A model generated the notes under the pieces. That model worked only from the letters and a program-made list of their open reading frames with translations. It made no database searches and was not told the origin of the DNA. DNA of 62,826 nucleotides from a virus. A program made the translations under genes and the position numbers. The number at the start of each line of letters is the position of its first letter. Position 1 is the first letter of the stretch. The stretch is from positions 1 through 62,826 of the IMG/VR virus record IMGVR_UViG_3300023292_000010; one strand, 5' to 3'. Below, piece after piece: positions 10,805-60,132 of this stretch.

Positions 10805-11530
10805 TTATTCGTCTACAAAATACTTATAATCTTCCCAATTATGAGGTTTATTTAAAGAATTTGTAAAATGAATGAACTTAATATCGGGATGGAATTCCCC
10901 ATCCATATAAAGATAGTCATTCCCTGTTTTTTCTTTATATAATTTGGTTATTTCATATTGCCAATCCTCATATGAGCCGCCCTCATATCTCAAAGGTCTT
11001 TCTACAACATCTGGTGTTGCCCATCTCGTGAACCAAGAATTAGGTAGAATTATCAATTCCATATTAGCATCTTTAACACCCATTTCTACAAAATGCTGTT
11101 CGCCGTTAACGGGTCCAGCTGTGGTGCCATCTTTTATAAATTTTTGCTGCCACATTTTTGGATTAGATACAAAAATGTTATAGAGATAATTCATATCACT
11201 TGGATAATATTTAAAAAATCCGCCATTAATTTTCCATTGATCGGCACCTAATCTACGCCACCAACCTGGCATTGCTAAAAATTGACCCCGGTTTATAGGA
11301 TAATCAAAAATCTCTTTATAGTTACCGGTTAGAATAATATCAATATCCATTACAACAACAGGTTCATCTATGTCCATTCCCATGACCTGCATTTTATTCC
11401 ATTGAAGAGCAACCCCTTTCATGAATGGTTTTCTTATCCAAACAAAATCATATTCAGGTAACTTTCGTTCAAGATACTCCTCATATTCTGGACCGTATTT
11501 TTCACCTATTCTTACACAAAATATTTTCAA
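10805..11530 (-). CDS. GT-A-like glycosyltransferase
   Basis: 241 aa. It carries a hydrophobic strand ending in a DxD motif (VVVMDIDIIL, about residues 72-81) expected to bind a nucleotide sugar through a divalent metal, followed by 'INGGFFKYYPSD' and 'NGEQHFV', typical of retaining GT-A enzymes. Cytoplasmic, with no membrane segment. Its start overlaps the stop of the next glycosyltransferase by 4 nt. The neighbourhood of fibre genes suggests virion glycosylation, but a host glycan target is equally possible. Confidence 0.7.
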   Translation of the reverse strand: MKIFCVRIGEKYGPEYEEYLERKLPEYDFVWIRKPFMKGVALQWNKMQVMGMDIDEPVVVMDIDIILTGNYKEIFDYPINRGQFLAMPGWWRRLGADQWKINGGFFKYYPSDMNYLYNIFVSNPKMWQQKFIKDGTTAGPVNGEQHFVEMGVKDANMELIILPNSWFTRWATPDVVERPLRYEGGSYEDWQYEITKLYKEKTGNDYLYMDGEFHPDIKFIHFTNSLNKPHNWEDYKYFVDE

Positions 11531-12384
11531 AAGAAATCCCCAAATCTTTTATTAATTACATGATACATCTTAGCATATTTATCATAATTTTTACCAACGA
11601 CAACACAATGCCAATCCCTTCCAATATAGTCTATTGGAACCCCCTTTGTCACAATGTTGTATGCGAAGATTGTTTCGTTGTCATAATTAAACACCCTTTG
11701 AATATTTTTAGGGTACATTGAATCGGGATCTTCTTTAAGATTTGTCATTAATTTTATAACATCGTCGAAGTTTTCGAAGTAATCTAACTGTTTAATAACG
11801 GCAGACGAGGCTACCATAATCCCAGTATTAAATACATCAGTATCAGGATCATACCCCTCTTCTAATAACATAGCATGGGCATTCCAATATTTGGTTGCTG
11901 GATTTCTTATACATGTATTATACCATTTATGTTCAATGGTTTTACCCCAAATAGCCTCAGAATTATTTTCAGCTATAGCAAATTTATCCTTATCAAATGC
12001 ATCGAATATATTTTCGTCGGTGTGTGGGATTACATCGAAGTCTAAATAACAAACGTTGTCATATAATGATGAAAGGGAATACATTAAATAATGCTTGTAA
12101 AAATTAACAATGTCATACACAGAGATCTGTGGATACATATTCTGGAATTTGAGTTTATATACCTGGAATTCTCGATCACCAAATAATCTATAATCAGCTC
12201 CTATACCGGTCGCGTAAAAGGATTGTTCAGCCGCAAGACTAGTGAAATATTTTTTAAATGATTCTTTTGCAATCGTGCTTTTTTTGCTTTTTTTCTGTAG
12301 CCCGGTTTTATTACTGAACCCTCCCGGGTTATCTAATTCCTCTTCTGGGATTTCAACATATACACTAAAAATTATATTTTTCAT
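11527..12384 (-). CDS. GT-A-like glycosyltransferase
   Basis: 285 aa. A nucleotide-diphospho-sugar transferase fold is suggested by the 'NVCYLDFDVIPHTDENIF' strand with its DxD (D-F-D), the acceptor-side 'NTGIMVASSAVIKQL', and a late 'WHCVVVG' segment. The N-terminal 'IIFSVYVEIP' is the first beta strand. Overlaps both neighbours by 1-4 nt, so it is co-translated with the methyltransferase and the other glycosyltransferase. Confidence 0.68.
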   Translation of the reverse strand: MKNIIFSVYVEIPEEELDNPGGFSNKTGLQKKSKKSTIAKESFKKYFTSLAAEQSFYATGIGADYRLFGDREFQVYKLKFQNMYPQISVYDIVNFYKHYLMYSLSSLYDNVCYLDFDVIPHTDENIFDAFDKDKFAIAENNSEAIWGKTIEHKWYNTCIRNPATKYWNAHAMLLEEGYDPDTDVFNTGIMVASSAVIKQLDYFENFDDVIKLMTNLKEDPDSMYPKNIQRVFNYDNETIFAYNIVTKGVPIDYIGRDWHCVVVGKNYDKYAKMYHVINKRFGDFF

Positions 12385-13049
12385 TATTGACCTATTATCA
12401 TGAATCGTTTAAAATCACCAAGATCTAGTTCACCCTTATACGCGATCCAATTCTTAGGTAAACACGGTTTAATATATTCTACAAATTCATCTAATGATTC
12501 CGAGCAATTTATATGAGAAGGGAGATCAAAAAAATTATTTGATTGTAATGCTATGAGAGCATCCGGATCTTTAGAAGCAACCCATGTGCAAAGATCCTCT
12601 CTGTCTATGTGTTCACAACTTGTAGAAATTACCAATCTGCTATCAAGAACATCATCATTTTTTAATGAGTCCTCAGTCTTAAATTGTAAATCTTCATTGG
12701 GAAATAATTTCTCGCCAAAATATTCTGCCATTGGGTCTATGTCAGAAGTAATAATATGAATTTCATTTGAAGGGTATTTTTCTCTAAATAAATGTGCGAG
12801 TAATCCATACCATCCGCCTGCGATAAATATTTTTCTATATTCGTCTGTGTCAGGATATAATTTAGTGTAGATTTTATGAAGCTCGTCTACAAGCCATTGT
12901 TTACTTTCCCAATGATTTTTATCGAGGGAATGTATAATATCTTTTATTCTGTAAAGATCATTTTGACCGTACATTGACTCATCATAAATTTCTTCGATAA
13001 TTTTAAGACTTCTATAATATATTTGCTCTTTCAAAATCACATTCCTCAT
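12384..13049 (-). CDS. Class I SAM-dependent methyltransferase-like protein
   Basis: 221 aa. The segment 'KIFIAGGWYGLLAHLF' with the following acidic strand 'IHIITSDIDP' fits motif I and the acidic loop of Rossmann-fold methyltransferases. A later 'LVISTSCEHID' fits motif IV. No target-recognition domain typical of DNA methylases, so a sugar or protein O-methyltransferase is more likely. The start overlaps the preceding glycosyltransferase gene by 38 nt, which is long but free of any conflict in frame. Confidence 0.6.
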   Translation of the reverse strand: MRNVILKEQIYYRSLKIIEEIYDESMYGQNDLYRIKDIIHSLDKNHWESKQWLVDELHKIYTKLYPDTDEYRKIFIAGGWYGLLAHLFREKYPSNEIHIITSDIDPMAEYFGEKLFPNEDLQFKTEDSLKNDDVLDSRLVISTSCEHIDREDLCTWVASKDPDALIALQSNNFFDLPSHINCSESLDEFVEYIKPCLPKNWIAYKGELDLGDFKRFMIIGQ

Positions 13050-13647
13050 AAGTTATTACAATTGCTTCTTTACTGTTATCCTCGAACATATACGAGAGTA
13101 TATAATCAGTATTAAAAGTGTCGTATTCAAAATTCTCGTGTACTAAATATCTATCTATCCCAACATATTTTCGAAGAAAATAATCCCGCTGCCCCGAATT
13201 TATAAACCAATCCCATATTTCATGTATGTCTGGGTTATCAGCATCCCACGCCATGACTGAAGAATTAATTCTTACATCATAATTTGTGGGTCTGTCGTAA
13301 ATTTTAGAATCTTTCCAATGACAATCTATTAGTGTTAATTTACTGAAATCATATTCCATCGTGAATGGATCACCAATTATCTTTGTATCAATATCAAAAT
13401 AAAGTGTATCACCTTCAAGAGGAAAATTCTTATCAAACATCGCAAGCTTATTCCACCAAACTTTAAGAGCAGGTTTAGTTGGAATAGGGATTACGGTTAT
13501 ATCTGGGTCGAGTCCGATAGGATCGTCGGTGTAGCAAAAATAATCTGCCTGATCAATAATCTCCTCATGCGCGCGTATGTCGCGATATAGATTATTAACC
13601 TGTTTACTGGAATACTTTGTACCCCATTTTACAAAAATTATATTCAT
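13012..13647 (-). CDS. GT-A-like glycosyltransferase
   Basis: 211 aa. It starts 'MNIIFVKWGTKY', has the 'LKVWWNKLAMF' helix and then 'DTLYFDIDTKIIGDP' with a DxD at about residues 104-106. A downstream 'INSSVMAWD' matches the acceptor loop of GT family-8-like enzymes. It belongs to the same broad family as the two downstream glycosyltransferases, suggesting sequential sugar additions by one cassette. Confidence 0.7.
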   Translation of the reverse strand: MNIIFVKWGTKYSSKQVNNLYRDIRAHEEIIDQADYFCYTDDPIGLDPDITVIPIPTKPALKVWWNKLAMFDKNFPLEGDTLYFDIDTKIIGDPFTMEYDFSKLTLIDCHWKDSKIYDRPTNYDVRINSSVMAWDADNPDIHEIWDWFINSGQRDYFLRKYVGIDRYLVHENFEYDTFNTDYILSYMFEDNSKEAIVITYEECDFERANIL

Positions 13648-14159
13648 TTTTTATATACTATCATCATTAAAGTTAATCGTGGTTCAATACTATCTATAGA
13701 GGAACCAAAATCGTGCCAAGTTTCATCTGTTCTTTTAAATACAAATGCGCGATTTGTTTTCCACTCTGATGACTTTACTAACGAATTTTTATTTTTACTT
13801 TTATACATTCTAGTACCGTCTCCTGTTTCAGAAACATATAAAATGCAGGTTAAAAGTTTTCGTCCATCATCACAATGAATTTTATTATGTTCATATCCGG
13901 GCTGAGCGCCAGCAAATTCTAAATCACAAGTGTGTATTTTTTCATCGTATTCTATATCAAATAATTTTAATATCTCTAAATGTTTAGAGATACATTTTTT
14001 ATAAAGTTTTGATTGTGGATCAAAATGTATTGAGGTCCGGTTTCTATGATTCAATTCAATTTTTTTTAAATGATATTGGATGTACGTAAAATCTTCTTCA
14101 GAAAAAGTATCATCTATTATCCAATAATCCCAAGGATCTGAATAGTGTGTAATATCCAT
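13644..14159 (-). CDS. 2-oxoglutarate/Fe(II)-dependent oxygenase
   Basis: 171 aa. The double-stranded beta-helix signature is visible: an HxD pair in KIHCDDGRKLLTCILYVS, then GDGTRMY, WKTNRAFVF, a distal His in TWHDF and an Arg in RLTLMMIV that would bind 2-oxoglutarate. This pattern fits prolyl-hydroxylase-like phage enzymes. The substrate could be a fibre protein (hydroxyl groups for glycosylation) or a sugar; the context next to glycosyltransferases and fibres favours virion modification, as inference. Confidence 0.78.
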   Translation of the reverse strand: MDITHYSDPWDYWIIDDTFSEEDFTYIQYHLKKIELNHRNRTSIHFDPQSKLYKKCISKHLEILKLFDIEYDEKIHTCDLEFAGAQPGYEHNKIHCDDGRKLLTCILYVSETGDGTRMYKSKNKNSLVKSSEWKTNRAFVFKRTDETWHDFGSSIDSIEPRLTLMMIVYKK

Positions 14160-16553: not shown

Positions 16554-16773
16554 TATTGTTCTCGACTATTTTGAGTAAGAGTGATTTAATTTCTACCATA
16601 TCTTTTGACAGATTTTCAACCTTGTCTTTAAGATTCCGGTCTTCTTCAAATTTCTTTTTTCTTCTTACCTTAGCTTCTTTTGCAGCTCTAATTTCACTTG
16701 TATTTATATTGATTATCGCGCCCGATTTAGCTCTCGCTAAATTCGGGCTAGATTTTACTTTTACTAATTCCAT
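16540..16773 (-). CDS. Small coiled-coil virion-region protein
   Basis: 77 aa. It opens 'MELVKVKSSPNLARAKSGAIININ' (key residues NLARAKSGAIIN), then a basic helix and a coiled coil 'LKDKVENLSKDMVEIKSLLLKI'. I recall similar short proteins beside large baseplate or fibre genes in marine T4-like phages. The start overlaps the stop of the 1719-aa gene by one base. Probable connector or chaperone; role unknown. Confidence 0.6.
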   Translation of the reverse strand: MELVKVKSSPNLARAKSGAIININTSEIRAAKEAKVRRKKKFEEDRNLKDKVENLSKDMVEIKSLLLKIVENNNGKS

Positions 16774-48677: not shown

Positions 48678-49586
48678 CTACATGAAGTTTCTTTTTAATT
48701 TACTTAATTCTAATTGCAATGTAGATAATTCGTGCATATGATGTAGATATGATGGGGGAGCATTAAGAGTAACATTTTGCTCGTGATCGTATTGAGTTAT
48801 TCGAGCTCTATTCACTCCAACTGCACCCCAATAAGATTTCTCGGTATCAGAATAAAGGAGGTCACCAGTTAAATAATCATGATATGAATATCTCACGGTA
48901 TTTTTATTAAAATATGGCGCTAATCCGTAAGTTTTGAGATTAATCATTGCGGCGAAATAATATGTCGAACCACAATAAGTAAAATGAGCATCTGAACCGA
49001 GTAGGGTTTCATACATCTCTTGGTATGGCATCGTGTAATCTATATACTTTATTTCAACCCCTATATCGTGTGCCCACTCTTCCACCTTTTTCATATATTT
49101 AGGAACCTCATTATAGGTCCACGATTTTTTACTACCACCAATACCCTTCTCGAGTTTTTGCATAGTAATATATTCACCCTTAGGTTTATTCTGTTCTTTC
49201 ATAGTCCAAAATTCATTCAATGCCCACGGTTCTACTACATGGCATACTGTTTTGGGTGCATGATAAAATGAAACCGTCATACCACAAGGGGGTATTCTCA
49301 TATTGTCTACTATCCAAACAAATCTATCAAATATAGGTTCGGCATCTGATTTTTTTCGTTTAAAATCTAAATCATACGGATACGTTACGGCGACATGATA
49401 CGGCTTATCAAGTGATCCTTCCTGGTAAAGGAGCTGTGCTTTATTAAAGGGTTTTGACAATAACGCCACAACTGTACCCCAGGAATACATTGTAGCATGT
49501 GAGAATCTAATAGGATGTGATCTATCAATAGTCGCTACATCATCTGTATTATTATGACCGAGATGAAGAGTTTTAACTAATTTCAT
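48678..49586 (-). CDS. Glycosyltransferase-like protein (paralogue A)
   Basis: 302 aa, related to the protein at 52201-53106. Shared blocks are 'VALLSKPFNKAQLLYQEG', 'FDRFVWIVDNMRIPPCG', 'IKYIDYTMPYQEMYETLLGSDAHFTYCGSTYYFAAMINL'. The last part resembles the C-terminal Rossmann half of GT-B enzymes such as the GT9 heptosyltransferases (helix, a-x-ig-dS-x-x-HLAaa). It is the last gene of the radical-SAM array. Donor and acceptor unknown; a Kdo- or heptose-like donor would suit the context. Confidence 0.55.
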   Translation of the reverse strand: MKLVKTLHLGHNNTDDVATIDRSHPIRFSHATMYSWGTVVALLSKPFNKAQLLYQEGSLDKPYHVAVTYPYDLDFKRKKSDAEPIFDRFVWIVDNMRIPPCGMTVSFYHAPKTVCHVVEPWALNEFWTMKEQNKPKGEYITMQKLEKGIGGSKKSWTYNEVPKYMKKVEEWAHDIGVEIKYIDYTMPYQEMYETLLGSDAHFTYCGSTYYFAAMINLKTYGLAPYFNKNTVRYSYHDYLTGDLLYSDTEKSYWGAVGVNRARITQYDHEQNVTLNAPPSYLHHMHELSTLQLELSKLKRNFM

Positions 49587-51109
49587 AATACTCTTACATC
49601 CATATATTCATCTGGTTCACATGCCCAAATGCTTTTCTTACGATGTTCTATATTTTCGTTTCCTGTTCCGGCATATTTTTTATAAAATTCTCTATCATAA
49701 ATTCTCTCCACATCTTTGTTGCGTATGATTTCCCACTTCTCCTCCCTGAAAAAACAATAATATTTGAATGTTTCTGCGAGTTCTGTAATTTCATCGCGTT
49801 GTAGATATCCATCTGCCATGGATAGAGCTGATCCACCAAGCAGGTAGCCATCACTTGAGATCCATTTTTCATCTAATAATCCATTCTCTACTGAGTATTT
49901 GTGTAGTTCTGTTCCTCGGTACGGGATGAAGATTCCGATGCCGATGCCGTCGTATCCTCCGAATCGCTTAACCAGGTCAACAGTTTTAAAAACCATTTCT
50001 CTCGTTTCGTGCGGAAGACCGATAATAACATTAAGACCGTAAGGAATACCAGAACCATTAATGGCATCAATTTTTTTATTATAGTCAGCATCTGTTACAT
50101 TTCTTTTTAGTATATTTTTGCGATATTCTTCATCGCCACATTCAATGCCAAACTGTATACGATCACAATAACCGTCTTTCATCACTTTGAGAATTTCTTC
50201 ATCAACATTCTCTATTCGAGTATTGCACCACCAGGGTATTTTGTATTCTGCTAATAATTCACAGAGATCAATTATCTCGTGTCTAGGTCTGGCGAGAAAT
50301 GAATCATCTACGAAGAACAAATAATCTGGATTATATAGCTCTACATAGTAATCAAGCTCTTCGCGCATATGTTCAATACTCTTGCGTCGTAGATAGTGTT
50401 TATCTAAGTATCTAGTCATAGGACTATTGCAAAATGTGCACGAATATGGGCATCCTCTATATGATTCAATGTTTATTGATTTTACAATGTTACCGCCCAC
50501 AGCGCGATTAAAACGGTTAGGATGGTATAGACTGTAATCTGGAATCGTCTCTTCGAGTACTGCGAGCGCCTGAGGAGGATTTCTTTTCTCTTTCGTCCAT
50601 GTTCCTCGTACGTCATTCCAAGGTTGGCTGGATCTATATCGTTCAATGATGTCTCTGACAACATATTCTCCTTCAAATCTACATATCATATTGATACTAG
50701 GATGGTTGATACATAATTCTGGTTCTGCAATAGGAAACACCCCGCCAACAATATGAGGGATGTTTAAATGTTCTATTGCATCTAACATTAGAATTGTATC
50801 TTTGAATGTGTCTTCTACTGTAGAAAACAGAATTATATCCGGGTTGTATTCTTCAACATAATTCACAAAATCTGGAATCATTACATTTGTCGGTTTGAGT
50901 TCCATTCCAAGATCCTCGGGAGTATAAGATCTACCGGCACCAATCTTAGATTTATATAACATTCCTTGATTGGCATCGTCAGAGTATGCCGTAGTCTCAA
51001 ATAATCGGACTTCAACACCATTCTCTTTACAAATCGCAGTGAAAATACCAACAGCAACTGCTGGTATCAACATCATGGGAAGATTAGGATACGCTATCAG
51101 AACTTTCAC
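49583..51109 (-). CDS. Radical SAM protein with B12-binding-type N-terminus
   Basis: 508 aa, GTG start (51107-51109). The N-terminal domain (about residues 1-150: 'KVLIAYPNLPMMLIPAVAVGIFT', 'IVGGVFPIAEPELCINHPS') is the Rossmann-like fold typical of B12-dependent radical SAM enzymes, but the DxHxxG His-ligand motif is not seen. The core motif is CPYSCTFC (CxxxCxxC) near residue 215, followed by 'YLFFVDDSFLARPRHEIIDL' and 'IQFGIECGDEEYRKNILKR'. Likely a methyl transfer or rearrangement on a sugar or peptide; substrate unknown. Confidence 0.85.
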   Translation of the reverse strand: MKVLIAYPNLPMMLIPAVAVGIFTAICKENGVEVRLFETTAYSDDANQGMLYKSKIGAGRSYTPEDLGMELKPTNVMIPDFVNYVEEYNPDIILFSTVEDTFKDTILMLDAIEHLNIPHIVGGVFPIAEPELCINHPSINMICRFEGEYVVRDIIERYRSSQPWNDVRGTWTKEKRNPPQALAVLEETIPDYSLYHPNRFNRAVGGNIVKSINIESYRGCPYSCTFCNSPMTRYLDKHYLRRKSIEHMREELDYYVELYNPDYLFFVDDSFLARPRHEIIDLCELLAEYKIPWWCNTRIENVDEEILKVMKDGYCDRIQFGIECGDEEYRKNILKRNVTDADYNKKIDAINGSGIPYGLNVIIGLPHETREMVFKTVDLVKRFGGYDGIGIGIFIPYRGTELHKYSVENGLLDEKWISSDGYLLGGSALSMADGYLQRDEITELAETFKYYCFFREEKWEIIRNKDVERIYDREFYKKYAGTGNENIEHRKKSIWACEPDEYMDVRVL

Positions 51110-51208
51110 TTATAATCTCTCGATCTTCATTTTAGATAGATCATTATCAATAATAGTAATTTTAACAGGAAACGTCACCCCATCAAAATCTGTATAATTT
51201 CCAAACAT
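51110..51208 (-). CDS. Short open frame of 32 aa between two radical SAM genes
   Basis: ATG at 51206-51208, TAA at 51110-51112 with the next GTG start directly after it. The sequence (MFGNYTDFDGVTFPVKITII then DNDLSKMKIERL) has no Cys and is too short for a family match; I sense a faint likeness to a beta strand of lipoprotein-sorting proteins. No strong ribosome site is visible. Either a tiny peptide product or an untranslated spacer. Confidence 0.35.
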   Translation of the reverse strand: MFGNYTDFDGVTFPVKITIIDNDLSKMKIERL

Positions 51209-51229
51209 TATCATTTGTAATCCTTCAAT

Positions 51230-52204
51230 TTAAATTCTATATTGCTCCATAGTGAAGTCGCCTGCTGTTAATTTATTATAATCGGCTTCAAAATTTGACC
51301 AAACTAAACTATCGGGAGCATCATATAACATATCACAATTCTTACAATAATCGACTTCATCAAATCGGTGTTCCTTATGCATTTTTCGTAAATGATTATA
51401 TGGTTCACCGTTCCAAATTTCATCAATGGTTTGGTCTGATAAATGACCCATTACAGCTTTAGAATCCTGTCCTAGAACTAAACAACAAGGTACTACTGCG
51501 CCTGTTTTCCCATCATTACCACCAGCTCGAACGATAAGATCTGGGGAGAATGGTCGACCGCACGATCTTTTTTCTGGTTTCTCGCGCCATGTTACCTCAT
51601 CATAAATGCCGCTCCAATTGTGCATTTTCCATATTGACGATTTAATACCTGGGACATGATCAATCCAATTTTTTCTATATTTATCAACATCATTCCACGC
51701 CTCATCATTATTAAGAATAAGGTGATATGACCCTAATGTAGTTTTTGCACCAACATCTTCTATATATTTAGTCATAGCAATGGCATTATCTCGAACGGAT
51801 ATAAAGTTGTCTTCGCTCATCCATTTATGATATGTCTCAGGATCGTATCCGGTAACTGAAAATCTAACAAAATGTAATCCGTGATCAACAAGACCTTTCA
51901 TTACATCACCCTCAATAAGAGATCCGTTAGAAATAAAACTCATCTTAAATCCTCGATCAATACCGGCTGTAATAAATTGATTTAATCGTTTATGCATTGT
52001 CGGTTCACCAGATCCCTCAAGGAAGATCTCTTTAACTTCAGAATCCATTAGTTGATCAAGAGTGTCTTTAAATAGTTCGAGCTTCATCATTCGTTTAAAT
52101 GATTTTTCGCGACCTCCCATAACCTCTGCTTGTGGACAAAATGCGCACGAATAATTACAAGATCCGCACACCTCTATAACTGCTTTTTTGATTGGTAATG
52201 TCAT
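51230..52204 (-). CDS. Radical SAM protein with C-terminal SPASM-like domain
   Basis: 324 aa. Core motif CNYSCAFC at residues 16-23, then 'FLEGSGEPTMHKRLNQFI' and 'SFISNGSL', with 'HFVRFSVTGYDPETYHKWM' as later strands. C-terminal Cys pairs in SCGRPF, VVPCCLVLG and DYCKNCDML fit SPASM auxiliary iron-sulfur clusters, found in peptide- and sugar-modifying enzymes. Overlaps the glycosyltransferase-like gene by 4 nt. Confidence 0.88.
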   Translation of the reverse strand: MTLPIKKAVIEVCGSCNYSCAFCPQAEVMGGREKSFKRMMKLELFKDTLDQLMDSEVKEIFLEGSGEPTMHKRLNQFITAGIDRGFKMSFISNGSLIEGDVMKGLVDHGLHFVRFSVTGYDPETYHKWMSEDNFISVRDNAIAMTKYIEDVGAKTTLGSYHLILNNDEAWNDVDKYRKNWIDHVPGIKSSIWKMHNWSGIYDEVTWREKPEKRSCGRPFSPDLIVRAGGNDGKTGAVVPCCLVLGQDSKAVMGHLSDQTIDEIWNGEPYNHLRKMHKEHRFDEVDYCKNCDMLYDAPDSLVWSNFEADYNKLTAGDFTMEQYRI

Positions 52205-53106
52205 TTTAATAAGATCTCTTTAGTTCTTTCTATAATTTCGTCATTAGTAAAAACCGGATAATGAAATCTTGGTTCATCTAAATACATTCGTTTATGCTTA
52301 TAATTATACATTAGGGTTTTGCCAACTGGTGTACCCACCTTATTCCATATACTAGATTTTATAGTCTCGGTAGCAGGTGCATCAATTGATGCAATAGGAT
52401 TACGATCTACATATTCATGGTGAACTTTTTTACCAAATTGAACTGTTGGGGTATTTGTAATCGCTGCTAAATAATACGTAGAACCTAAATATCCAAAATG
52501 TGCTTTTGCATTGATCATTAGTTCATATACCTCTGATATTGGGGTAGTATAATCTATCTCTTTTATATCATATCCCAATTCAGTAGCCTTGAATTTTATC
52601 AAAGATACTGATGATGGTAAATTTATTCTATGCCCATCCTTAGGACTATGTTGTATTTCCCCATGGGATTGAAGGGTAATGTAATCACTATCTGTACCAT
52701 TATTTATTTTTTTCGTATTCCATAAAGAGTAAAAACCATATGGTGAATCCATTCTAGATCTCATTTTAAGTGATTCATAAACAGATACTACAACACCACC
52801 ATCAGGGTCTCTAAAGTTTTCGACAATCCACAGAATGCGATCTAGCATCGTCTCAGGGTCTTCATCTTTAACTTTTAAATAAGCTGATTCACTAACAACA
52901 ACTGAGATCTTATATGGCCTATCAGTAATTTTTTCTTCGTTATACATTTGGGCCTTTGAGAATGTGTGACTAAGTAAAGCTATTATTGGGGCATAGGCAC
53001 TTGCATCATCTTTAGATATTCTAATTATTTCTGAATTATTAGGATCAACTATACCACAAGGATTACACCCTTTATAAAACGTTTTAATATGCTTTATATC
53101 ACTCAT
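52201..53106 (-). CDS. Glycosyltransferase-like protein (paralogue B)
   Basis: 301 aa, paralogue of 48678-49586 (shared 'IALLSHTFSKAQMYNEE', 'LDRILWIVENFRDPDGG', 'IKEIDYTTPISEVYELMINAKAHFGYLGSTYYLAAITNTPTVQFG'). The second copy ends with 'TPTVQFG', even closer to GT-B glycosyltransferases of the heptosyltransferase type. Positioned between two radical SAM genes with 4-nt overlaps on both sides. Function inferred from fold resemblance only. Confidence 0.55.
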   Translation of the reverse strand: MSDIKHIKTFYKGCNPCGIVDPNNSEIIRISKDDASAYAPIIALLSHTFSKAQMYNEEKITDRPYKISVVVSESAYLKVKDEDPETMLDRILWIVENFRDPDGGVVVSVYESLKMRSRMDSPYGFYSLWNTKKINNGTDSDYITLQSHGEIQHSPKDGHRINLPSSVSLIKFKATELGYDIKEIDYTTPISEVYELMINAKAHFGYLGSTYYLAAITNTPTVQFGKKVHHEYVDRNPIASIDAPATETIKSSIWNKVGTPVGKTLMYNYKHKRMYLDEPRFHYPVFTNDEIIERTKEILLK

Positions 53107-54317
53107 AGAAATTCTTTTAATTCTTTTAATTCTGGTACATATTCAAGAAGGTCAAATCCCCGAACCTCATTCATTTTCTCTATCCATCTAAAGGATCTTT
53201 TAAGATTTTCAAAATCACCTATTTTTGGATCTACGTCAGTTAATACAGGTCTAAATTGTACGTTTGGGTATTCCTTAAATGCATATTTATATTTTTGTTG
53301 TTGAAATTCGATGATGTCTTTAGGTAAATTCTGAATTTTAATATAATTTGGCCAATAAGAAATATTTGTTATGTTGATACCTCTTACGTATTCTTTATCA
53401 TAAAAATATTCTACAATCTTTTCTAATGAAAAGAAATTAAACATAGAAACAAATGGTATTATAAGCACCTTTCGTCCTGTAACATCATAATATTTTTCCA
53501 TGTTAGCAACGGTTTTTTCAAAATTGCCACCTCGAATCCAATCATATTCCTTACCTATTCCATCTATAGATGCTGAGATGTTAAAACAAGCTTTTGCAGG
53601 TTTTACCTTTTCTAGCATTTTAAATGTACTTTGTGATATGGTCTGCATATTAGAAACTATTTCAGTCATACATTGGGGATTTACATCAATCATTCTCTCG
53701 AGAATTTTTAAATTGTTTTTATCTGCAAAAGGTTCGCCACCTTTAACGGTTAAAATATCCAGTCCAGGTAGAACTTCTAATATTTTATCTATGTCACTCT
53801 TACCTAATCTAACAATGTCATGAATCGTATTTTTAGAAAAATCATCCTTCTCACTTTTCGTAAACGTTTTATTAAGATCTCTCCATTTCGAACTAAAAAA
53901 ACTACCACATGAAACACATGTTTGATTACACATATTAGAACAAGTATATTCTAAATATCTAACAGGTCTATTAACATTCAGTTTTCGATTTTTCCAATCT
54001 TCATCAAAATGGTTTTCAGAATACTTATAAAAATCAAATATGCCCATCATACTTTGTTTGTGATTTATGAACATTTTGGCACAGTTATTACAAGCAGGTA
54101 GATCTGATATTTTACCGGCTTCCATCTTTTCTCTAACGTGTTCCATTTCTGCGCTATTATATATTTCTTCTAAAGAAGAGACTTCAGAGATGTGTGCAAT
54201 AGTGTCATTCGTGGAATTACAACACAAAACAATATACCCTCTTGGATTTATTGTAATACCGCTAAATGGTGCTTTACATATAACTTTTCGTCTAGATAAA
54301 TATTCTTCATGTGACAT
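53103..54317 (-). CDS. Radical SAM protein with N-terminal twitch/SPASM-like domain
   Basis: 404 aa. Unusually, the auxiliary-cluster-like Cys residues come first ('VICKAPFSGITINPRGYIVLCCN', 'LPACNNCAKM', about residues 12-80), then the radical SAM core CNQTCVSC at about 131-138 and 'ILTVKGGEPFADKNNLKIL'. This N-terminal twitch plus core layout occurs in a known subset of radical SAM proteins. Overlaps both neighbours. Confidence 0.86.
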   Translation of the reverse strand: MSHEEYLSRRKVICKAPFSGITINPRGYIVLCCNSTNDTIAHISEVSSLEEIYNSAEMEHVREKMEAGKISDLPACNNCAKMFINHKQSMMGIFDFYKYSENHFDEDWKNRKLNVNRPVRYLEYTCSNMCNQTCVSCGSFFSSKWRDLNKTFTKSEKDDFSKNTIHDIVRLGKSDIDKILEVLPGLDILTVKGGEPFADKNNLKILERMIDVNPQCMTEIVSNMQTISQSTFKMLEKVKPAKACFNISASIDGIGKEYDWIRGGNFEKTVANMEKYYDVTGRKVLIIPFVSMFNFFSLEKIVEYFYDKEYVRGINITNISYWPNYIKIQNLPKDIIEFQQQKYKYAFKEYPNVQFRPVLTDVDPKIGDFENLKRSFRWIEKMNEVRGFDLLEYVPELKELKEFL

Positions 54318-55326
54318 CTTCGTCTACCAATCTATCTAATAGCCAATTTGAGAATTGATTATTAATCAAATGATTTACTGTTTCATAATTAGTTGAACCA
54401 ATTTTTATATCTAATAATTCACCATTAAGAGTGTCTATTATATTTTTAATTTCTTTTGATGGGAGATTCCATATTGCCAAATGCTCTGGGTATCTAATAG
54501 TGTTATACCACAGCGTGTTCTTATTTTTTCCTGTCCATTTTGCAAAATTTACCATTTCATCCCAATTATTTCTCATTGGGTTTACCATGATGGAAATTCT
54601 CTTACCTTTATCAATATGATATTGATTAAAGATTTCATAGTTCTTCATTAACTTATCAAACTTACCATTAATTCTAATAGCTTCATATCTCTCTGGGATG
54701 AGACTATCAATACTGATATTTAGAACAACATTACATTCTTCGAGAAGTTTTATTACATTTTTGTTATATACTGTACCATTAGTTGCAAGACTCACAACTA
54801 GATCTGGATTTAATATCTTTACTCTTTCACAGATATCATATACGATTTTCTGGGATAAAGGTTCCCCTCCATTAAATCTGAGTTCTTTAAGGTGCGGTAT
54901 AAACTCATCCATTTGTCTAACGAAACTATCACCATAAATTTGTTTGAGCGGTGGGAGCTTTTCTCTATTTTTTCTAATCCCAGAACTTAATAATCCCTGA
55001 CACATAGTACATTCAAGGTTACATTTGTTACTCAATTCAAGTTCCATTAGTGAGGGATATTCTTGAATGGGAAAATTGTCATAAGCTTTAGCTAAAGGCC
55101 AAACGCCCTCGTCAGATTCCTTTTTACAAAGCTGACATTTAGGGTTATTATATACCTGATTGTTATGATCTTCTCTGAGTTTTTTGTAACCTTCCCCAAA
55201 CCAAATATCTCTTATGGAATTCTCTTCTGACCAATCACTAATATACCCAGGGGTTAACCAGCACGGGGCTGCGTGACCCAGAACAGTAAAATACATATTA
55301 TTAAAGGGTGCTTTACACTTCATCAT
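54307..55326 (-). CDS. Radical SAM protein with N-terminal twitch/SPASM-like domain
   Basis: 339 aa. Same layout as the previous gene: N-terminal 'KCKAPFNNMYFTVLGHAAPCW', 'PKCQLCKKES', then the core CNLECTMC at about residues 100-107, 'LRFNGGEPLSQKIVYDI' and 'VVLNISIDSLIPERYEAIRIN'. The start overlaps the SPASM-like gene by 14 nt. The two enzymes may be a duplicated pair acting in sequence. Confidence 0.86.
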   Translation of the reverse strand: MMKCKAPFNNMYFTVLGHAAPCWLTPGYISDWSEENSIRDIWFGEGYKKLREDHNNQVYNNPKCQLCKKESDEGVWPLAKAYDNFPIQEYPSLMELELSNKCNLECTMCQGLLSSGIRKNREKLPPLKQIYGDSFVRQMDEFIPHLKELRFNGGEPLSQKIVYDICERVKILNPDLVVSLATNGTVYNKNVIKLLEECNVVLNISIDSLIPERYEAIRINGKFDKLMKNYEIFNQYHIDKGKRISIMVNPMRNNWDEMVNFAKWTGKNKNTLWYNTIRYPEHLAIWNLPSKEIKNIIDTLNGELLDIKIGSTNYETVNHLINNQFSNWLLDRLVDEDVT

Positions 55327-55735
55327 CTTCTTCTATTTTAATAAGGGGATTAAATGGATTCTCGACAGTACAATGTTTTGTACATATGGAAGATATTTTA
55401 TCCGAATCGTCCCACGAATCATATAATTCTTGAAACCATTTATGATCCAATATATCTTCAATATCATTATTAAATATATTGAGATCTTTTTCGTTGTCTA
55501 TATATGATTTTAAAATAGGGTCGTGCACGGTTTTACGAGCGCTAGAAGGATAATTAACTAGAGCATATTCTAATGGATATTCATCGGGTTTTTCGTATGT
55601 ATCTGGATAACCAAACTGCTTACTAACAAATATATTATTAGCAAAATAACAGCATGGAATGACCTGACCGTCGGGGTTAATAACTATTCGTTTTCTGTTC
55701 ATCCATTCACATGATATACATGGACTATTACTCAT
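55313..55735 (-). CDS. Freestanding SPASM-like iron-sulfur protein
   Basis: 140 aa with no radical SAM core. Cys groups: SPCISCEW at the N-terminus, 'INPDGQVIPCCYF' and 'SSICTKHCTVENP' at the C-terminus. Pattern matches SPASM auxiliary-cluster modules with the catalytic barrel deleted. Could supply an accessory cluster or bind substrate for a neighbouring radical SAM enzyme. Overlaps both flanking genes. Confidence 0.68.
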   Translation of the reverse strand: MSNSPCISCEWMNRKRIVINPDGQVIPCCYFANNIFVSKQFGYPDTYEKPDEYPLEYALVNYPSSARKTVHDPILKSYIDNEKDLNIFNNDIEDILDHKWFQELYDSWDDSDKISSICTKHCTVENPFNPLIKIEEDDEV

Positions 55736-57053
55736 TCTTGAAATCCTTTATTCTTTTGAGGTCTTTTTCATTATTTAAATAAAGATCTCTCCAAAAAATA
55801 TCACCAAATTCATCAAATGTGCTTTGTTCTAAACTGTCGTCTTTACTGTCTTCGTTGATGAACTTAAATTTATTTGATTCACCGCCACTATGATGAAATC
55901 TATTAGAAGGAACAAAGAAGACAGTTTCAGCACCATTTTCTTTTGCAAGAAGGGCTATTTCATATAAGTCATCCTGATTGTGTTTAAATACTACAGTAAA
56001 AACTCTAGTTTTTGTTTTTGTACTAGAGATGGTTATAAGATTATCAAGTACCAATGACAATGACGTTTTTCTTCTATATTTACTATGTTGCTCTTGATTA
56101 ATACCGTCTATATCAAACGTTACATTTAATCTATCACCACACAGTATACCTAAATCCCACCACCAATCCGGTGTTCTGATACTCCCGTTTGTGTTGATCA
56201 TAATTTTACAATTACTATTTTGTATTACATATTTAATAATCTTAAAGATATCCTTATTCATTATAGGATCTCCCCAAGTACCACATAGCTCAAATTTAGA
56301 GAATCTTTTCATAGATTCAACGGGAAATGATTTCTTGAAATATTCAAAAGACCACTGTATTAATGGTAACCAATTTGACTTGTCTAATCCATCAGGATTT
56401 GTACGATGACATTGTGGACATGCCGCATTACAATATGTGGATAAATCTACCCACATAATTAAATCTTTATTGGTATAATGATCTTTATATTTCTTTAATT
56501 TTGATAATGACAATGCTTTATCCACAATGGTTTCTATTTTATCCTCATCAATAATATCTTCAAAATAGAATATATGATCAAAATTAAAAGTTTTTAAAGA
56601 TCTAGAATTTATTTCTTTAAAATGATTTGCTTTTTCAATAATATCTACATCACTGGGATAATATTCCTCGAATTTTAATTCTTCTCGAACTAGTTTAGAA
56701 CCCCACCCATAAGATGATAAGGTTCCCCAGTAATTATTGTGTATTGCTATTAAATCGGATTCTGCCTGCGCGTCAAGATCTCTTCTTTTTAATAATATAA
56801 AAACGTCAAAGTGTTCTTTTAGATCTAGTCCGGATCTACAAAGTTTCTCATACATATCCAAATTACATTTTATAATTAAAGGGTCTATATGTGAGTATTT
56901 ATCGAAATATTCAATCAATGATATTGATCTTTTTTGATGATCGTGGAATAATTCCCGAGGAATTTTATTGTTTATTCCCCACCGTTCTCTAAGTTTAAAT
57001 GTAAAATAGTGTGATGCAGTTCTGTTGCTATAGATTATTAAAATTTTAGCCAT
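55728..57053 (-). CDS. Sulfotransferase-like domain fused to a radical SAM domain
   Basis: 441 aa. Residues about 1-190 look like a sulfotransferase-type P-loop fold: 'ILIIYSNRTASHYFTFKL' (5' phosphosulfate loop) and 'FILLKRRDLDAQAESDLIA' (3' loop). Residues about 205-420 have the radical SAM motif CNAACPQC and 'FELCGTWGDPIMNKDIFKII', 'NVTFDIDGINQEQHSKYRR'. Fusion of these two activities is unusual. The first radical SAM gene in transcription order. Confidence 0.72.
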   Translation of the reverse strand: MAKILIIYSNRTASHYFTFKLRERWGINNKIPRELFHDHQKRSISLIEYFDKYSHIDPLIIKCNLDMYEKLCRSGLDLKEHFDVFILLKRRDLDAQAESDLIAIHNNYWGTLSSYGWGSKLVREELKFEEYYPSDVDIIEKANHFKEINSRSLKTFNFDHIFYFEDIIDEDKIETIVDKALSLSKLKKYKDHYTNKDLIMWVDLSTYCNAACPQCHRTNPDGLDKSNWLPLIQWSFEYFKKSFPVESMKRFSKFELCGTWGDPIMNKDIFKIIKYVIQNSNCKIMINTNGSIRTPDWWWDLGILCGDRLNVTFDIDGINQEQHSKYRRKTSLSLVLDNLITISSTKTKTRVFTVVFKHNQDDLYEIALLAKENGAETVFFVPSNRFHHSGGESNKFKFINEDSKDDSLEQSTFDEFGDIFWRDLYLNNEKDLKRIKDFKNE

Positions 57054-57055
57054 AT

Positions 57056-57193
57056 TTACAAAAAATATTCAATTTCGCCACAATGCTTACATACAGGAGC
57101 ACCAGTTACTTCAGGGAACGGTTTACCTTTTAGATACCCAACTTCTTTACCAAAGTCATGAAAACCTAACCAGCATAAAATCTTATTAAGCAT
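57056..57193 (-). CDS. Small zinc-ribbon-like protein, 45 aa
   Basis: ATG at 57191-57193 overlapping the cupin stop by 8 nt, TAA at 57056. Contains 'ILCWLGFHDFG' and a C-terminal CKHCGEIEYF, so two CxxC-like groups with His. Short Cys-pair proteins like this may bind zinc. No other clue to function. Confidence 0.6.
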   Translation of the reverse strand: MLNKILCWLGFHDFGKEVGYLKGKPFPEVTGAPVCKHCGEIEYFL

Positions 57194-57530
57194 GTCCTAC
57201 ATTCTCTCTTTTGATGTCATTGTGATTAAATTCAGCCCAATACAATTCAAATGCTACTGAGTCTTCAATACATTCAAATTGGTGATATACACCCGGCTTT
57301 ACCTTACAAAAATCGCCTGGACGGAGAATAGTTTCATCAACAAGGTCGTAATCATTCTGCCAAACCCGTATTAGAAGTACGCCAGATTCAACATAAAATC
57401 CATTCCATTTGAATTCGTGAAGATGCTTTGAACATACCCCTCCAGCATTAGTCTCAATACGATGGAATTCAAGAACACCGTTTGCTTCTAGGAGTTCTGT
57501 GACTCCCCACACTTTTCCTGCTTTTGACAT
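57186..57530 (-). CDS. Cupin, sugar-phosphate-isomerase-like
   Basis: 114 aa from MSKAGKVWG; a GTG 12 nt upstream is possible but overlaps the previous gene. Metal-site cupin pattern: CSKHLHEFKWNGFYVESG (H-x-H, then E) and 'RPGDFCKVKPGVYHQFE' (distal His). Resembles the C-terminal cupin of mannose-6-phosphate isomerase/GDP-mannose enzymes. Likely epimerises or binds a sugar or sugar nucleotide in the surrounding pathway. Confidence 0.72.
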   Translation of the reverse strand: MSKAGKVWGVTELLEANGVLEFHRIETNAGGVCSKHLHEFKWNGFYVESGVLLIRVWQNDYDLVDETILRPGDFCKVKPGVYHQFECIEDSVAFELYWAEFNHNDIKRENVGHA

Positions 57531-57531
57531 G

Positions 57532-57792
57532 TTAATTTCCACTCCAATGTCGTTGGGTTATATCTAGATCCATCGATGGATCAATTTCAATGCACATACT
57601 ACAGTCACACGGAAAGCTTAATGCACCATGTCTTATGGCGACCTGGACAGCAAGATCTAATTGTTTTTCCAGTCCTGCACATTTTTCAGTTAATCCCTCA
57701 ATCATAGCATCTTTGACTATATCAAACATTTCCGGTGTCATTTTTTCCATAGCGCCGGCTAAGTCTATTACTATCTTTTGTGGTTCGTTCAT
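57532..57792 (-). CDS. Hypothetical protein, 86 aa
   Basis: Helical ('MTPEMFDIVKDAMIEGLTEKCAGLEKQLDLAV'), with CDCSMC near the C-terminus that could bind a metal. Overlaps the HAD gene upstream by 4 nt and ends 1 nt before the cupin. Function unknown; part of the same operon. Confidence 0.55.
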   Translation of the reverse strand: MNEPQKIVIDLAGAMEKMTPEMFDIVKDAMIEGLTEKCAGLEKQLDLAVQVAIRHGALSFPCDCSMCIEIDPSMDLDITQRHWSGN

Positions 57793-58376
57793 AGATATAA
57801 AAAATCCCTATAGTTTAAATATTGCGCGCAATGATTATACGCTTCGATACCAATTCCATCGTCGTAGCTGACTGTATACGCACGCTTATGTGGTATATAG
57901 ACGTCATCTAGGGCAACCCATAGCATCTGGTCAGTCTTATATTTTTCTAACCAAGAGAGGATAGCAGCCATTCTTGGGTGATGTTCGGGTGATTGGTGCC
58001 GAGATGCACATTCACTTAGATCGATATTATATTGATCGAACAGATCGTGGTTGAATCCAGTATACCCGATTTGAGGGTATTCGGTCGATACTGATGGATG
58101 AATGTCACCATTGAATCCAGCCTTAATGAACTGATCAACAAGACCGGGCCATACAACTTCACCCGTAGTCTTATTCTTAGTCAACTCCAACATATTGGAA
58201 TGCGTGCTGTTAAAGACGATTTGGGCATCAGATTTCTCAATGATCTTCTTAAGCACCATTACGCATCTCTCATCAAGATTCTGATTGAAAGATGCCATTC
58301 TGTCGTCTAGATATTTCGTTGCTGGAATCATTGGTCCATCAATATCTAGAAAAATAATTTTATCGGGTTTACCCAT
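57789..58376 (-). CDS. HAD-like phosphatase
   Basis: 195 aa. HAD motif I in FLDIDGPMIP (about residues 9-18), a likely motif II in 'QIVFNSTHSN', and an acidic C-terminal block in 'WVALDDVYIP' (DD of motif IV). Positioned right after kdsB, it may dephosphorylate Kdo-8-phosphate in place of KdsC, but the sequence is more like generic HAD phosphatases, so the substrate is inferred. Overlaps kdsB by 8 nt. Confidence 0.68.
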   Translation of the reverse strand: MGKPDKIIFLDIDGPMIPATKYLDDRMASFNQNLDERCVMVLKKIIEKSDAQIVFNSTHSNMLELTKNKTTGEVVWPGLVDQFIKAGFNGDIHPSVSTEYPQIGYTGFNHDLFDQYNIDLSECASRHQSPEHHPRMAAILSWLEKYKTDQMLWVALDDVYIPHKRAYTVSYDDGIGIEAYNHCAQYLNYRDFLYL

Positions 58377-59094
58377 CGTTGAATTCCTCTAAGTCAAATT
58401 TTGTATCAATTTCAGAAACCGCTTCAGGGTCAATAAGATTTGTTATATTGAAAGATCCGACGACTTCATTGCAATTCCCTAACCATCTTAATTGTTCTAA
58501 GCCCTCTTTTGCTTCACAATTGGTTACGGAATAGTTTAAGTATTTAGCTAATGCTTCTTTTGTGTATCCATAAATCCCATGATGTTTATGACCATCCCAA
58601 TGTGGTAATCTAGTAAACCAATTAACAGAAGGGATTTTCTCATTCGCTCTTATCACTGTACCGTCATATTCACCAATTATTGCTTTAACAACGTTTGGAT
58701 TTTCGACAGAATCTGGATCCAGATCTGAATGTGCTGTAACAACATGTGCGTCCCAAGCGACCCAACTTGCAAGTTCGGCAATGATTTGTTCTGTAACACC
58801 TACAAAATCACCTTGAACATTAATGATGTTCTCGTAGTTCATTTTGGCAGCAACTTCAGCGCATCGCTCTGTACCATTCATACACCATGATGACGTCTTA
58901 ATAACATTATATGGAATTACGTCTCCAATCAGCTCAGAGTCCGTAATGACGTAAACATCAAAATCGGTTTCTGCTTGAACCTTGTCAAACATATATCTAA
59001 TAAGGGGTTTGCCGCGACAATTCGCAAGCATCTTATTAGGAAATCTAATGCTCTCTAGTCGAGCGGGTATAAAAACTGCTGTATTATTTGTCAT
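58369..59094 (-). CDS. kdsB: CMP-Kdo synthetase KdsB-like (3-deoxy-manno-octulosonate cytidylyltransferase)
   Basis: 241 aa from the ATG at 59092-59094, which has GGAGG 5-9 nt upstream; a longer frame has no ribosome site. Activates Kdo with CTP. Motifs: 'FIPARLESIRFPNKML', 'MNGTERCAEVA', 'IINVQGDFVG', 'NPNVVKAI', 'HGIYGYTKEALAKYL', 'EGLEQLRWL'. Residues after QGD differ from E. coli (QGDEPM), so substrate preference may have shifted. Its ATG overlaps a small membrane peptide. Confidence 0.85.
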   Translation of the reverse strand: MTNNTAVFIPARLESIRFPNKMLANCRGKPLIRYMFDKVQAETDFDVYVITDSELIGDVIPYNVIKTSSWCMNGTERCAEVAAKMNYENIINVQGDFVGVTEQIIAELASWVAWDAHVVTAHSDLDPDSVENPNVVKAIIGEYDGTVIRANEKIPSVNWFTRLPHWDGHKHHGIYGYTKEALAKYLNYSVTNCEAKEGLEQLRWLGNCNEVVGSFNITNLIDPEAVSEIDTKFDLEEFNDG

Positions 59095-59173
59095 CACTTC
59101 CTCCAAAATAAAAGAGCCCAAAGAATAGAAGACCTATTCCTATAGCCCACAATGAAATTACAAAATCATCCAT
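59084..59173 (-). CDS. Tiny membrane peptide, 29 aa
   Basis: ATG at 59171-59173, overlapping the upstream gene's stop, TAA at 59084-59086, with kdsB starting inside its last codons. One hydrophobic segment (FVISLWAIGIGLLFFGLFYF) and a polar C-terminus. The GGAGG for kdsB lies within it, so its translation may couple to kdsB. Confidence 0.5.
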   Translation of the reverse strand: MDDFVISLWAIGIGLLFFGLFYFGGSDDK

Positions 59174-59366
59174 TCATCTTTGCCTCATGGCCATTTTCAC
59201 GTTCACAGCAACAACCACTCATTTCTGGGCTATCGTTACATATAGGTTGGTAATCCCAATCTGGGCACCAATGAATACCGGGACAAATGTCGAACGGTAT
59301 TGGTATTGGTAGTTTACCACTTTTGTCTGCTTCTGTAAGAATTTTCATTTGCTCTTTAGACAACAT
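59166..59366 (-). CDS. Cys-rich hypothetical protein, 66 aa
   Basis: N-terminal helix (MLSKEQMKILTEADK) then a Cys-rich tail with CPGIHWCPDW, ICNDS and GCCCEREN, which could hold a metal or iron-sulfur centre. Overlaps kdsA by 11 nt. No family recognised. Confidence 0.5.
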   Translation of the reverse strand: MLSKEQMKILTEADKSGKLPIPIPFDICPGIHWCPDWDYQPICNDSPEMSGCCCERENGHEAKMNG

Positions 59367-60132
59367 CGTTTATCCTCACTAATTCTTCCACCATCATCTC
59401 AAAGTCATTAAGATACAATGAATTTGGTCCATCAGATAACGCATTATCTGGATCTTTATGTACTTCCATAAAGAATGAGCGTACACCCATTGCTGCAGCA
59501 GCTCTGAGGAGTCCTGGCGCATAGTCTCGAGGTGCGCATGGCACACCTAAATCTAATAGCTGTGGTGGGCATTTTTGAACCGCATGTGTTGCATCAAATA
59601 CAAAATTATGTTTGTAATAAAATTGTAGATAATCCATACCCATAAAATCTACTACAAGGTTGGAATATCCAAATGATGTACCTCTGTCAGTAACCCAAAC
59701 TTCACTTGCGCCTTCAGCTTTTTCTACTGCCGAGTGAATATCCCAAGGGGTCATAAATTGACCTTTCTTAATATTCACGATTTTACCTGTTCTAGCAGCT
59801 TCCATGATAAGATCTGTTTGGCGTGACAAAAATGCTGGTATCTGATAAACGTCAATAACATCGACCATTTCAACGACTATAAGTTCGGATGGTGAATGAA
59901 CATCAGTTAAGATTTTAAGATCTGGGATTTCCTTCTTCATTTTTCGAAAATCGATTAAAGCAAATAATCCCTGACCTCGAGGTGAATCACTCTTTGTACG
60001 ATTTGCTTTATCGTATGAAGCCTTAAAATAGTATTCAATTTCAAATTTATCACATACACGTTTACACTCTTTTGCAATTTCAAGTGATTGCTCTAAAGAT
60101 TCGTGTTGACATGGTCCTGCTATAATTCTCAT
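59356..60132 (-). CDS. kdsA: Kdo-8-phosphate synthase KdsA
   Basis: 258 aa (E. coli: 284). Joins phosphoenolpyruvate and arabinose-5-phosphate. All hallmark blocks are present: IAGPCQHES at the N-terminus, 'FKASYDKANRTKSDSPRGQG', 'LTDVHSPSE', 'QIPAFLSRQTDL', 'VNIKKGQFMTPWD', 'TDRGTSFGYSNLVVD', 'DATHAVQ' and 'EVHKDPDNALSDGPNS'. The Cys in AGPC marks the metal-dependent class (E. coli has Asn there). First enzyme of the pathway; ATG overlaps the upstream stop by 4 nt. Confidence 0.95.
   Translation of the reverse strand: MRIIAGPCQHESLEQSLEIAKECKRVCDKFEIEYYFKASYDKANRTKSDSPRGQGLFALIDFRKMKKEIPDLKILTDVHSPSELIVVEMVDVIDVYQIPAFLSRQTDLIMEAARTGKIVNIKKGQFMTPWDIHSAVEKAEGASEVWVTDRGTSFGYSNLVVDFMGMDYLQFYYKHNFVFDATHAVQKCPPQLLDLGVPCAPRDYAPGLLRAAAAMGVRSFFMEVHKDPDNALSDGPNSLYLNDFEMMVEELVRINDVV

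Follow-up and report, generated by a model that had tools for sequence, protein, structure and literature searches.

Eight co-directional genes occupy positions 48678-57053 on the minus strand of the window, by which we mean the whole 62,826-nucleotide stretch that was analysed (Table 1; genes are named by their lower coordinate), and all of their open reading frames were confirmed. Five of the eight encode a CxxxCxxC motif, namely CPYSCTFC at residue 220 in 49583, CNYSCAFC at residue 16 in 51230, CNQTCVSC at residue 130 in 53103, CNLECTMC at residue 102 in 54307 and CNAACPQC at residue 208 in 55728. The Pfam Radical_SAM profile (PF04055) scored above its curated cut-off in four of these, and 53103 enters the superfamily through the NCBIfam model NF033640 (twitch domain-containing radical SAM protein, curated cut-off 170 bits). 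SPASM is the only Pfam domain in 55313. Motifs, profiles and gene calls agree with an initial sequence-only reading of five radical SAM genes and a SPASM-only gene on one strand of a T4-like phage. With a terminase 65% identical to that of the Kyanoviridae phage C48C1, the window is a fragment of a T4-like, Kyanoviridae-related phage. The gene overlaps of 4-14 nt described in that reading hold at six junctions (4, 4, 4, 11, 14 and 8 nt), but a single gap of 120 nt separates the gene ending at 51109 from 51230.

The array comes after a run of KdsA-like, KdsB-like and cupin genes (57186-60132). The product of 59356 scores above the NF003543 cut-off for KdsA (PRK05198) and reaches 280.4 bits against TIGR01362, below the cut-off of 314, while the best NCBIfam match of 58369 is Kdo cytidylyltransferase (149 bits, below the cut-off of 193). 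A 45-aa Cys-rich ORF (57056-57193) precedes 55728 and belongs to no recurring small-ORF family. A second sugar-gene site in the window is the GT8-like cassette at 10805-14159. Homologues of 10805 in relatives lie directly upstream of the radical SAM array, the position of the methyltransferase-like gene 12384 is kept in relatives, and a homologue of 13644 (38%) adjoins a 51230-type gene in contig L100. For 11527, PF01501 matched 7 of 12 relatives (best 1.7e-8), and the 11527 product stands at 37.5% to its counterpart in Pelagibacter phage Mosig.

Table 1. Features of the radical SAM array, the Kdo gene run and the GT8-like cassette
Feature	Coordinates	Strand	Basis
GT8-like glycosyltransferase	10805..11530	-	Invariant DxD in A6; top PDB hit is a GT8 (E 0.0067)
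GT8-like glycosyltransferase	11527..12384	-	PF01501 18.2 bits, below cut-off 24.3; invariant DxD
Putative methyltransferase	12384..13049	-	Weak match; Mosig homologue annotated methyltransferase
GT8-like glycosyltransferase	13012..13647	-	A6 alignment, DxD; relatives
2OG-Fe(II) oxygenase-like protein	13644..14159	-	PF13640 21.6 bits, below cut-off 27
GT-like paralogue a (GTa)	48678..49586	-	32% identical to 52201 product; family A4
B12-binding radical SAM protein, GTG start	49583..51109	-	PF04055 66.5 bits; B12-binding 34.7 bits
Radical SAM/SPASM protein	51230..52204	-	PF04055 53.1 bits; SPASM 45.1 bits; family A8
GT-like paralogue b (GTb)	52201..53106	-	No family match; weak GT-B structure matches
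Twitch-domain radical SAM protein (N_Twi_rSAM)	53103..54317	-	NF033640 213.8 bits; CNQTCVSC
Radical SAM, N-terminal SPASM/twitch domain	54307..55326	-	PF04055 57.7 bits; SPASM 27.6 bits
SPASM-only protein, auxiliary Fe-S domain	55313..55735	-	PF13186 24.8 bits
Radical SAM core (CNAACPQC) without own SPASM	55728..57053	-	PF04055 30.8 bits
Cupin between Kdo genes and array	57186..57542	-	PF07883 31.7 bits
KdsB-like (CMP-Kdo synthetase)	58369..59121	-	PF02348 75 bits
KdsA-like (Kdo-8-phosphate synthase)	59356..60132	-	NF003543 287.1 bits, cut-off 242

Enzymes encoded in the array

Short radical SAM cores have a SPASM gene directly after them in 74 of 88 cases and none (0/88) contains the domain itself, whereas all 12 long cores carry SPASM inside the same protein, as do the bacterial relatives. 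Based on this adjacency and fusion distribution, 55728 and 55313 appear to be two halves of one enzyme. Five Cys are invariant across 15 relatives of 55313. A sequencing frameshift was ruled out as the source of the split because dozens of contigs have the two genes apart. The 55728 core is modelled as a radical SAM barrel (pLDDT 87.7) with Foldseek matches to SkfB, BlsE, anSME, NifB and MoaA, a fold shared by sugar-acting and peptide-acting enzymes alike, which in this respect counts against the glycan role proposed below. Its N-terminal extension of 185 aa was seen only here and had no relatives in PDB and phage searches; because its sulfotransferase-like motifs were spotted by eye only and those searches were empty, a sulfotransferase identity is not claimed. 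A literature search for standalone SPASM proteins found none.

Single-protein viral scans returned no relatives of 49583, 53103 or GTb, and alignments of other genes were required instead. By profile, the nearest solved structures are BtrN, BlsE and DesII for 51230 and AprD4 and OxsB for 49583, with the BtrN twitch domain also among the nearest structures by profile. The closest solved relatives of 51230 and 49583 are sugar, cyclitol or nucleoside enzymes. HpnJ, PhpK and AprD4 are the NCBIfam families nearest to 49583, and in the synthesis of hopanoid cyclitol ethers HpnJ acts once a glycosyltransferase has done its step (PMC12583986). BtrN, BlsE, DesII, AprD4 and HpnJ are thus the closest solved or named relatives of the two proteins, although family scores lie far below the equivalog cut-offs (for 49583, 96.1 against 500 bits for AprD4 and 124.1 against 577.6 bits for HpnJ). 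Counting against a glycan role, the best NCBIfam match of 51230 is a tungsten-enzyme maturase rather than a sugar enzyme, and the best PDB matches of 53103, which are weak, are the peptide maturases SkfB and SuiB. The product of 54307 scores 141.1 bits against NF033640, under the cut-off; of its 23 relatives in viruses, 21 stand at 52-65%.

GTa and GTb, previously described as paralogous GT-B-like genes, are indeed true paralogues, at 32% identity. Their GT-B likeness is weakly supported: an AF2 model of GTb (pLDDT 81.5) had POMGNT2, TibC and WaaC as top Foldseek matches, at E > 1e-3 and TM < 0.4. Neither protein matched a family, and no GTb was found in named phages.

Gene order in related viruses and earlier reports

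Related viral contigs carry the array, so it is not accidental. Contig L096 has the whole array with its gene order almost unchanged, immediately following the GT8-like cassette and inside the tail-fibre cluster (three GT8-like genes and a methyltransferase gene, radical SAM, SPASM, twitch radical SAM genes, GTb-like and, further on, radical SAM/SPASM, B12-radical SAM and GTb-like). The GT-like paralogues are almost confined to records with a 51230-type gene (relatives 45-71% identical), which they adjoin; families A4 and A8 occur together in 6 records, A8 alone in 2, A4 alone in 1 and neither in 15 (p = 0.001). Even in C48C1, which keeps only the 51230-type gene, the neighbour is a very divergent A4 member (E 8e-4). 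That the array behaves as one unit with its GT-like genes is supported by the gene order in L096 and by the position of the GT-like genes beside the 51230-type gene in lineages with both. For the array as a whole, we found neither single radical SAM genes scattered without GT-like partners nor separate host operons, with C48C1 as a partial exception. Capture of the whole array from a host operon is unsupported; a bacterial scan with one query gave lone fused relatives only and no operon resembling the array.

A GT8-like cassette lies within 10 kb of the radical SAM core in 34 of 59 distinct loci, whereas of 20 control stretches, each 20 kb long, a single one has it (p = 2e-5). Some glycan-type gene is near the core in 52/59 loci versus 8/20 controls, a comparison biased upward because the non-GT8 glycan families were defined from radical SAM loci. 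The KdsA(-KdsB)-cupin run is kept in L154, L157 and L161. Array composition differs among relatives and the array moves between sites.

Radical SAM arrays in T4-like phages have already been published, and the view that none was described in this phage group did not hold. Campylobacter phages CP220/CPt10, which are T4-related, have cassettes of five one-strand radical SAM genes with two nucleotide-diphospho-sugar-transferase-like genes (PMC2853527). These differ from the present array in resembling it little at the sequence level (32% across some 150 aa), in lacking the SPASM-only gene and family A4, and in encoding a glycine amidinotransferase, which Pfam did not detect in 48678-57053. A marine T4-like Tara genome carries 12 radical SAM genes, which the available part of the report reads as Fe-S metabolism, with no discussion there of gene order or a glycosyltransferase link (PMC5332604). 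Also comparable are the pelagimyophage host-recognition clusters, where a T4-like marine phage carries GT8-like, methyltransferase and radical SAM genes in a tail-fibre island; a split radical SAM/SPASM pair is not mentioned in the portion of the report available (PMC7029224). The GT cassette fits this layout, as in the many relatives where it lies inside the tail-fibre block, but the array in this window, unlike that of many relatives, stands away from the tail-fibre site. Mosig (EXVC030M), from the same group, has homologues of 10805-13049 but lacks the 51230-type, GTa/GTb and KdsA families. Among the open papers searched, we found no description of either the split radical SAM-SPASM enzyme or the co-conserved radical SAM/GT unit.

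Proposed function and alternatives

Our best reading is that the array is a mobile island for making glycans that would decorate either the tail fibres or the surface of the host, and an unusual sugar coat for virus or host is most likely because the set recurs beside tail-fibre and sugar genes. Kdo-type and other activated sugars, from KdsA/KdsB here and from the UDP-glucose dehydrogenase, epimerase and carbamoyltransferase found in relatives, would feed the GT8-like transferases. The radical SAM enzymes would carry out oxidation, dehydration or rearrangement at carbons of the sugar, either while it is nucleotide-bound or once the glycan is assembled, 49583 being likened to AprD4/HpnJ and 51230 to BtrN/BlsE/DesII. 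GTa and GTb would transfer the product, and the 55728 barrel and 55313 may act as a two-protein complex. Tail fibres are favoured as the destination, since the home site of the cassette in relatives is the tail-fibre gene block, with a host surface glycan as a close alternative. We consider it fairly probable that the array provides the radical-chemistry part of a phage glycan pathway, with a 55728-55313 complex and tail fibres as the likeliest target; that radical SAM sugar chemistry, including a two-subunit enzyme derived by gene fission, builds an unusual tail-fibre glycan is offered tentatively. Against this reading, GTa and GTb have no family match and weak fold matches, the array in this window lies away from the tail-fibre site with no late promoter found at its start, no more than 5 of the 25 other records have KdsA, and the arrays of some relatives lie near recombination genes rather than tail genes.

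The same pathway could act on the LPS or capsule of the infected host, the altered surface excluding competing phages, which we regard as possible but not likely. O-chain modification by GT8 genes of host-recognition clusters is proposed in PMC7029224, a lock-out hypothesis for phage LPS genes including KdsA is described in PMC5332604, Kdo is an LPS sugar whose genes here precede the array, and no late promoter was found in the window at the array start. In favour of the tail-fibre reading, a possible T4-type late promoter, TATAAATA, occurs at 16708, upstream of the tail-fibre/GT block. Virion modification is nevertheless the simpler reading of a GT cassette that sits among tail-fibre genes, and the array showed no gene for a membrane flippase, a polymerase or a ligase.

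Decoration of phage DNA bases by the radical SAM and GT-like enzymes is improbable. Of 12 relatives, 5 encode short proteins resembling thymidylate synthase that are possible dCMP/dUMP hydroxymethylases, in G014 and G015 within a KdsA/UGD/epimerase operon, a sixth relative (G023) has a full-length thymidylate synthase, and C48C1 has a TET/JBP-like gene. However, the near-complete G005, with 10 radical SAM matches, and the isolate Mosig have neither gene type, and the GT cassette is grouped with tail-fibre rather than DNA-modification genes. Equally doubtful is that the radical SAM genes are unrelated cargo, each with a separate function, gathered in a variable region: the changing composition and site would suit this, as would the judgement that the CP220/CPt10 cassettes are exchangeable and probably non-essential (PMC2853527), but the colinear order in L096, the overlapping genes, the paired radical SAM and SPASM genes and the A4/A8 co-occurrence argue otherwise. 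Peptide (RiPP-type) modification, in which SPASM/twitch enzymes would act on a small precursor that the GT-like proteins then glycosylate, is very unlikely: SPASM enzymes often act on peptides, the weak best PDB matches of 53103 are SkfB and SuiB, and the gap at 51110-51229 contains an ORF of 34 aa preceded by a plausible ribosome-binding site, but this ORF is missing from relatives whose genes there overlap or leave 13 nt, no conserved precursor was found among the small ORFs of array loci (the largest family to recur, present in 8 loci, is that of a structural protein), and Pfam found no PqqD/RRE domain in the array genes.

The sequence-only reading is in sum partly supported: between the peptide and complex-sugar options it had left, the profiles and GT8 neighbours favour sugar. 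To our knowledge, phage radical SAM cassettes have been known since 2010 with no function assigned. As a simple system of two proteins, the split pair would allow the contribution of the auxiliary cluster domain to be probed by supplying or omitting one of the 55728/55313 subunits. The co-conserved radical SAM/GT unit, with its home among tail-fibre genes, leads to the concrete hypothesis that virions or hosts may bear radical-modified glycans.

Domain layouts and the split enzyme

In this 62.8-kb T4-like virus record, whose terminase is 65% identical to that of the Kyanoviridae phage C48C1 and about 45% identical to those of cyanophages, eight minus-strand ORFs span 57053-48678; neighbours overlap by 4-14 nt, apart from a single 120-nt gap. 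Five of them carry a CxxxCxxC motif, and four of the proteins exceed the Pfam Radical_SAM cut-off. Pfam also places a B12-binding domain in the product of 49583 (genes are named by their lower coordinate) and SPASM domains in those of 51230, 53103, 54307 and 55313, and the 53103 product exceeds the NF033640 cut-off. Two small ORFs occupy the sole gaps of the array region (Table); neither was found again in relatives' arrays. Residues 1-185 of the protein encoded at 55728-57053 form an N-terminal extension unique to this phage, with motifs resembling a Stf0-type sulfotransferase by eye and no database support.

Viral contigs were scanned with the 55728 radical SAM (rSAM) core, yielding 265 relatives (80 retained), and with 54307, yielding 23. 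In the fetched loci, 100 core copies were counted, forming 59 groups at 90% identity. All 12 long cores contain a SPASM domain and none has a separate SPASM gene beside it, whereas a SPASM domain lies inside 0/88 short cores and a SPASM-only gene comes directly after 74 of these. The remaining 14 short cores lie at a contig end (5), are tandem duplicates (6) or have a different neighbour (3). The SPASM-only proteins have five invariant cysteines. A second rSAM family (clusters c19/c14; examples in the Table) pairs likewise, its SPASM-only gene following a motif-bearing rSAM in 7/8 cases and a contig-truncated copy in the eighth. The domain layouts and the split pair therefore indicate that the array uses three arrangements to combine a barrel with its auxiliary domain; the predicted auxiliary domain is C-terminal in 51230, N-terminal in 53103 and 54307, and a separate protein in 55728 plus 55313.

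Bacterial relatives carry the SPASM domain within the rSAM protein itself. Phage and bacterial copies separate in the tree (support 100/99), and over all groups the split and fused states require three changes. The simplest reading of a tree whose root is not independently fixed would be a fused ancestor followed by fission in phages. T4-like phages rich in rSAM genes appear in Timms et al. 2010 (PMC2853527), Nishimura et al. 2017 (PMC5332604) and a 2020 pelagimyophage study (PMC7029224); no account of a split rSAM-SPASM pair or an rSAM/glycosyltransferase (GT) unit was found among the open-licence papers searched.

Features and their coordinates
Feature	Record	Position
Second rSAM + SPASM-only pair (c19/c14)	L029	8146-9172
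Second rSAM + SPASM-only pair (c19/c14)	L104	6798-7743
TET/JBP-like dioxygenase gene	W01 (phage C48C1)	50309-50755
Gap ORF, 34 aa	window	51110-51214
Gap ORF, 45 aa	window	57056-57193
Small HD-type RelA/SpoT-like protein	window	44327-44821
Intein/Hint-like stretch	L007	2-4546

Genomic setting in relatives

In L005, L007, L012, L015, L106 and other viral loci, rSAM genes lie between tail-fibre genes 14160 and 10417, behind homologues of window genes 13012, 12384, 11527 and 10805. The window keeps this GT8-like cassette at the tail-fibre site; its rSAM array lies instead behind a KdsA-KdsB-cupin run which, with UDP-glucose dehydrogenase, epimerase and cytidylyltransferase, is shared by L154, L157 and L161 and partly by L150. 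In L154, L157 and L161 (controls from G005, G014 and G015), the KdsA(-KdsB)-cupin sugar-nucleotide run is near UvsX, and in the latter two it includes a short thymidylate-synthase-like gene. The whole array set recurs nearly in window order in L096 (a contig shared with L063), L100 has the same components, and L064 and L066 hold fused variants and several GT-like genes. C48C1 retains the flanking tail-fibre genes and lacks the cassette between them; elsewhere it has a 51230-type gene (43% identical), which immediately follows a GT-like gene that has diverged strongly.

The GT8-like cassette, picked independently of the array, lies within 10 kb of an rSAM core in 34/59 loci; among control stretches taken from genomes of this kind, 1/20 has it (p = 2e-5). 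For any glycan-type gene the counts are 52/59 and 8/20, most such families having been defined from rSAM loci. Co-occurrence of the GT-like family (A4) with the 51230-type family (A8) gave p = 0.001 over 24 records; because these were partly selected as carriers, adjacency of the two is the stronger evidence.

The RelA/SpoT-like protein of the window (Table) scores 61.8 bits to TIGR00691, below cut-off, and is possibly a phage (p)ppGpp hydrolase. The Intein/Hint-like stretch of L007 (SCFVAGTQVTMADG...) lies within a large baseplate/tail protein. L112 and L113 are phage-like contigs placed in a Rhodobacteraceae genome bin, a hint that some carriers may have alphaproteobacterial hosts.

Predicted role of the array

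Profile searches of solved structures matched 51230 to BtrN, BlsE and DesII, 49583 to AprD4 and OxsB, 54307 to the BtrN twitch domain and MoaA, and 53103 weakly to SkfB/SuiB; 55728 had no match, and no array rSAM reached an equivalog cut-off. The 55728 core is modelled with confidence as an rSAM barrel, and peptide as well as sugar enzymes are among its structural matches. The model of the GT-like 52201 product (pLDDT 81.5) weakly matches GT-B transferases, among them POMGNT2 and TibC, which have protein substrates. A precursor peptide was looked for across arrays and not found.

That the array enzymes modify DNA is improbable: some relatives encode thymidylate-synthase-like proteins (short in 5/6) and C48C1 has a TET/JBP-like gene, but G005 and the Pelagibacter phage Mosig, near-complete or complete and rSAM-rich, have neither. 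A putative glycan pathway, whose target may be the virion or the host, is suggested by the tail-fibre location, the GT8-like genes, the genes for Kdo and other sugars, and the affinities of the rSAM enzymes.
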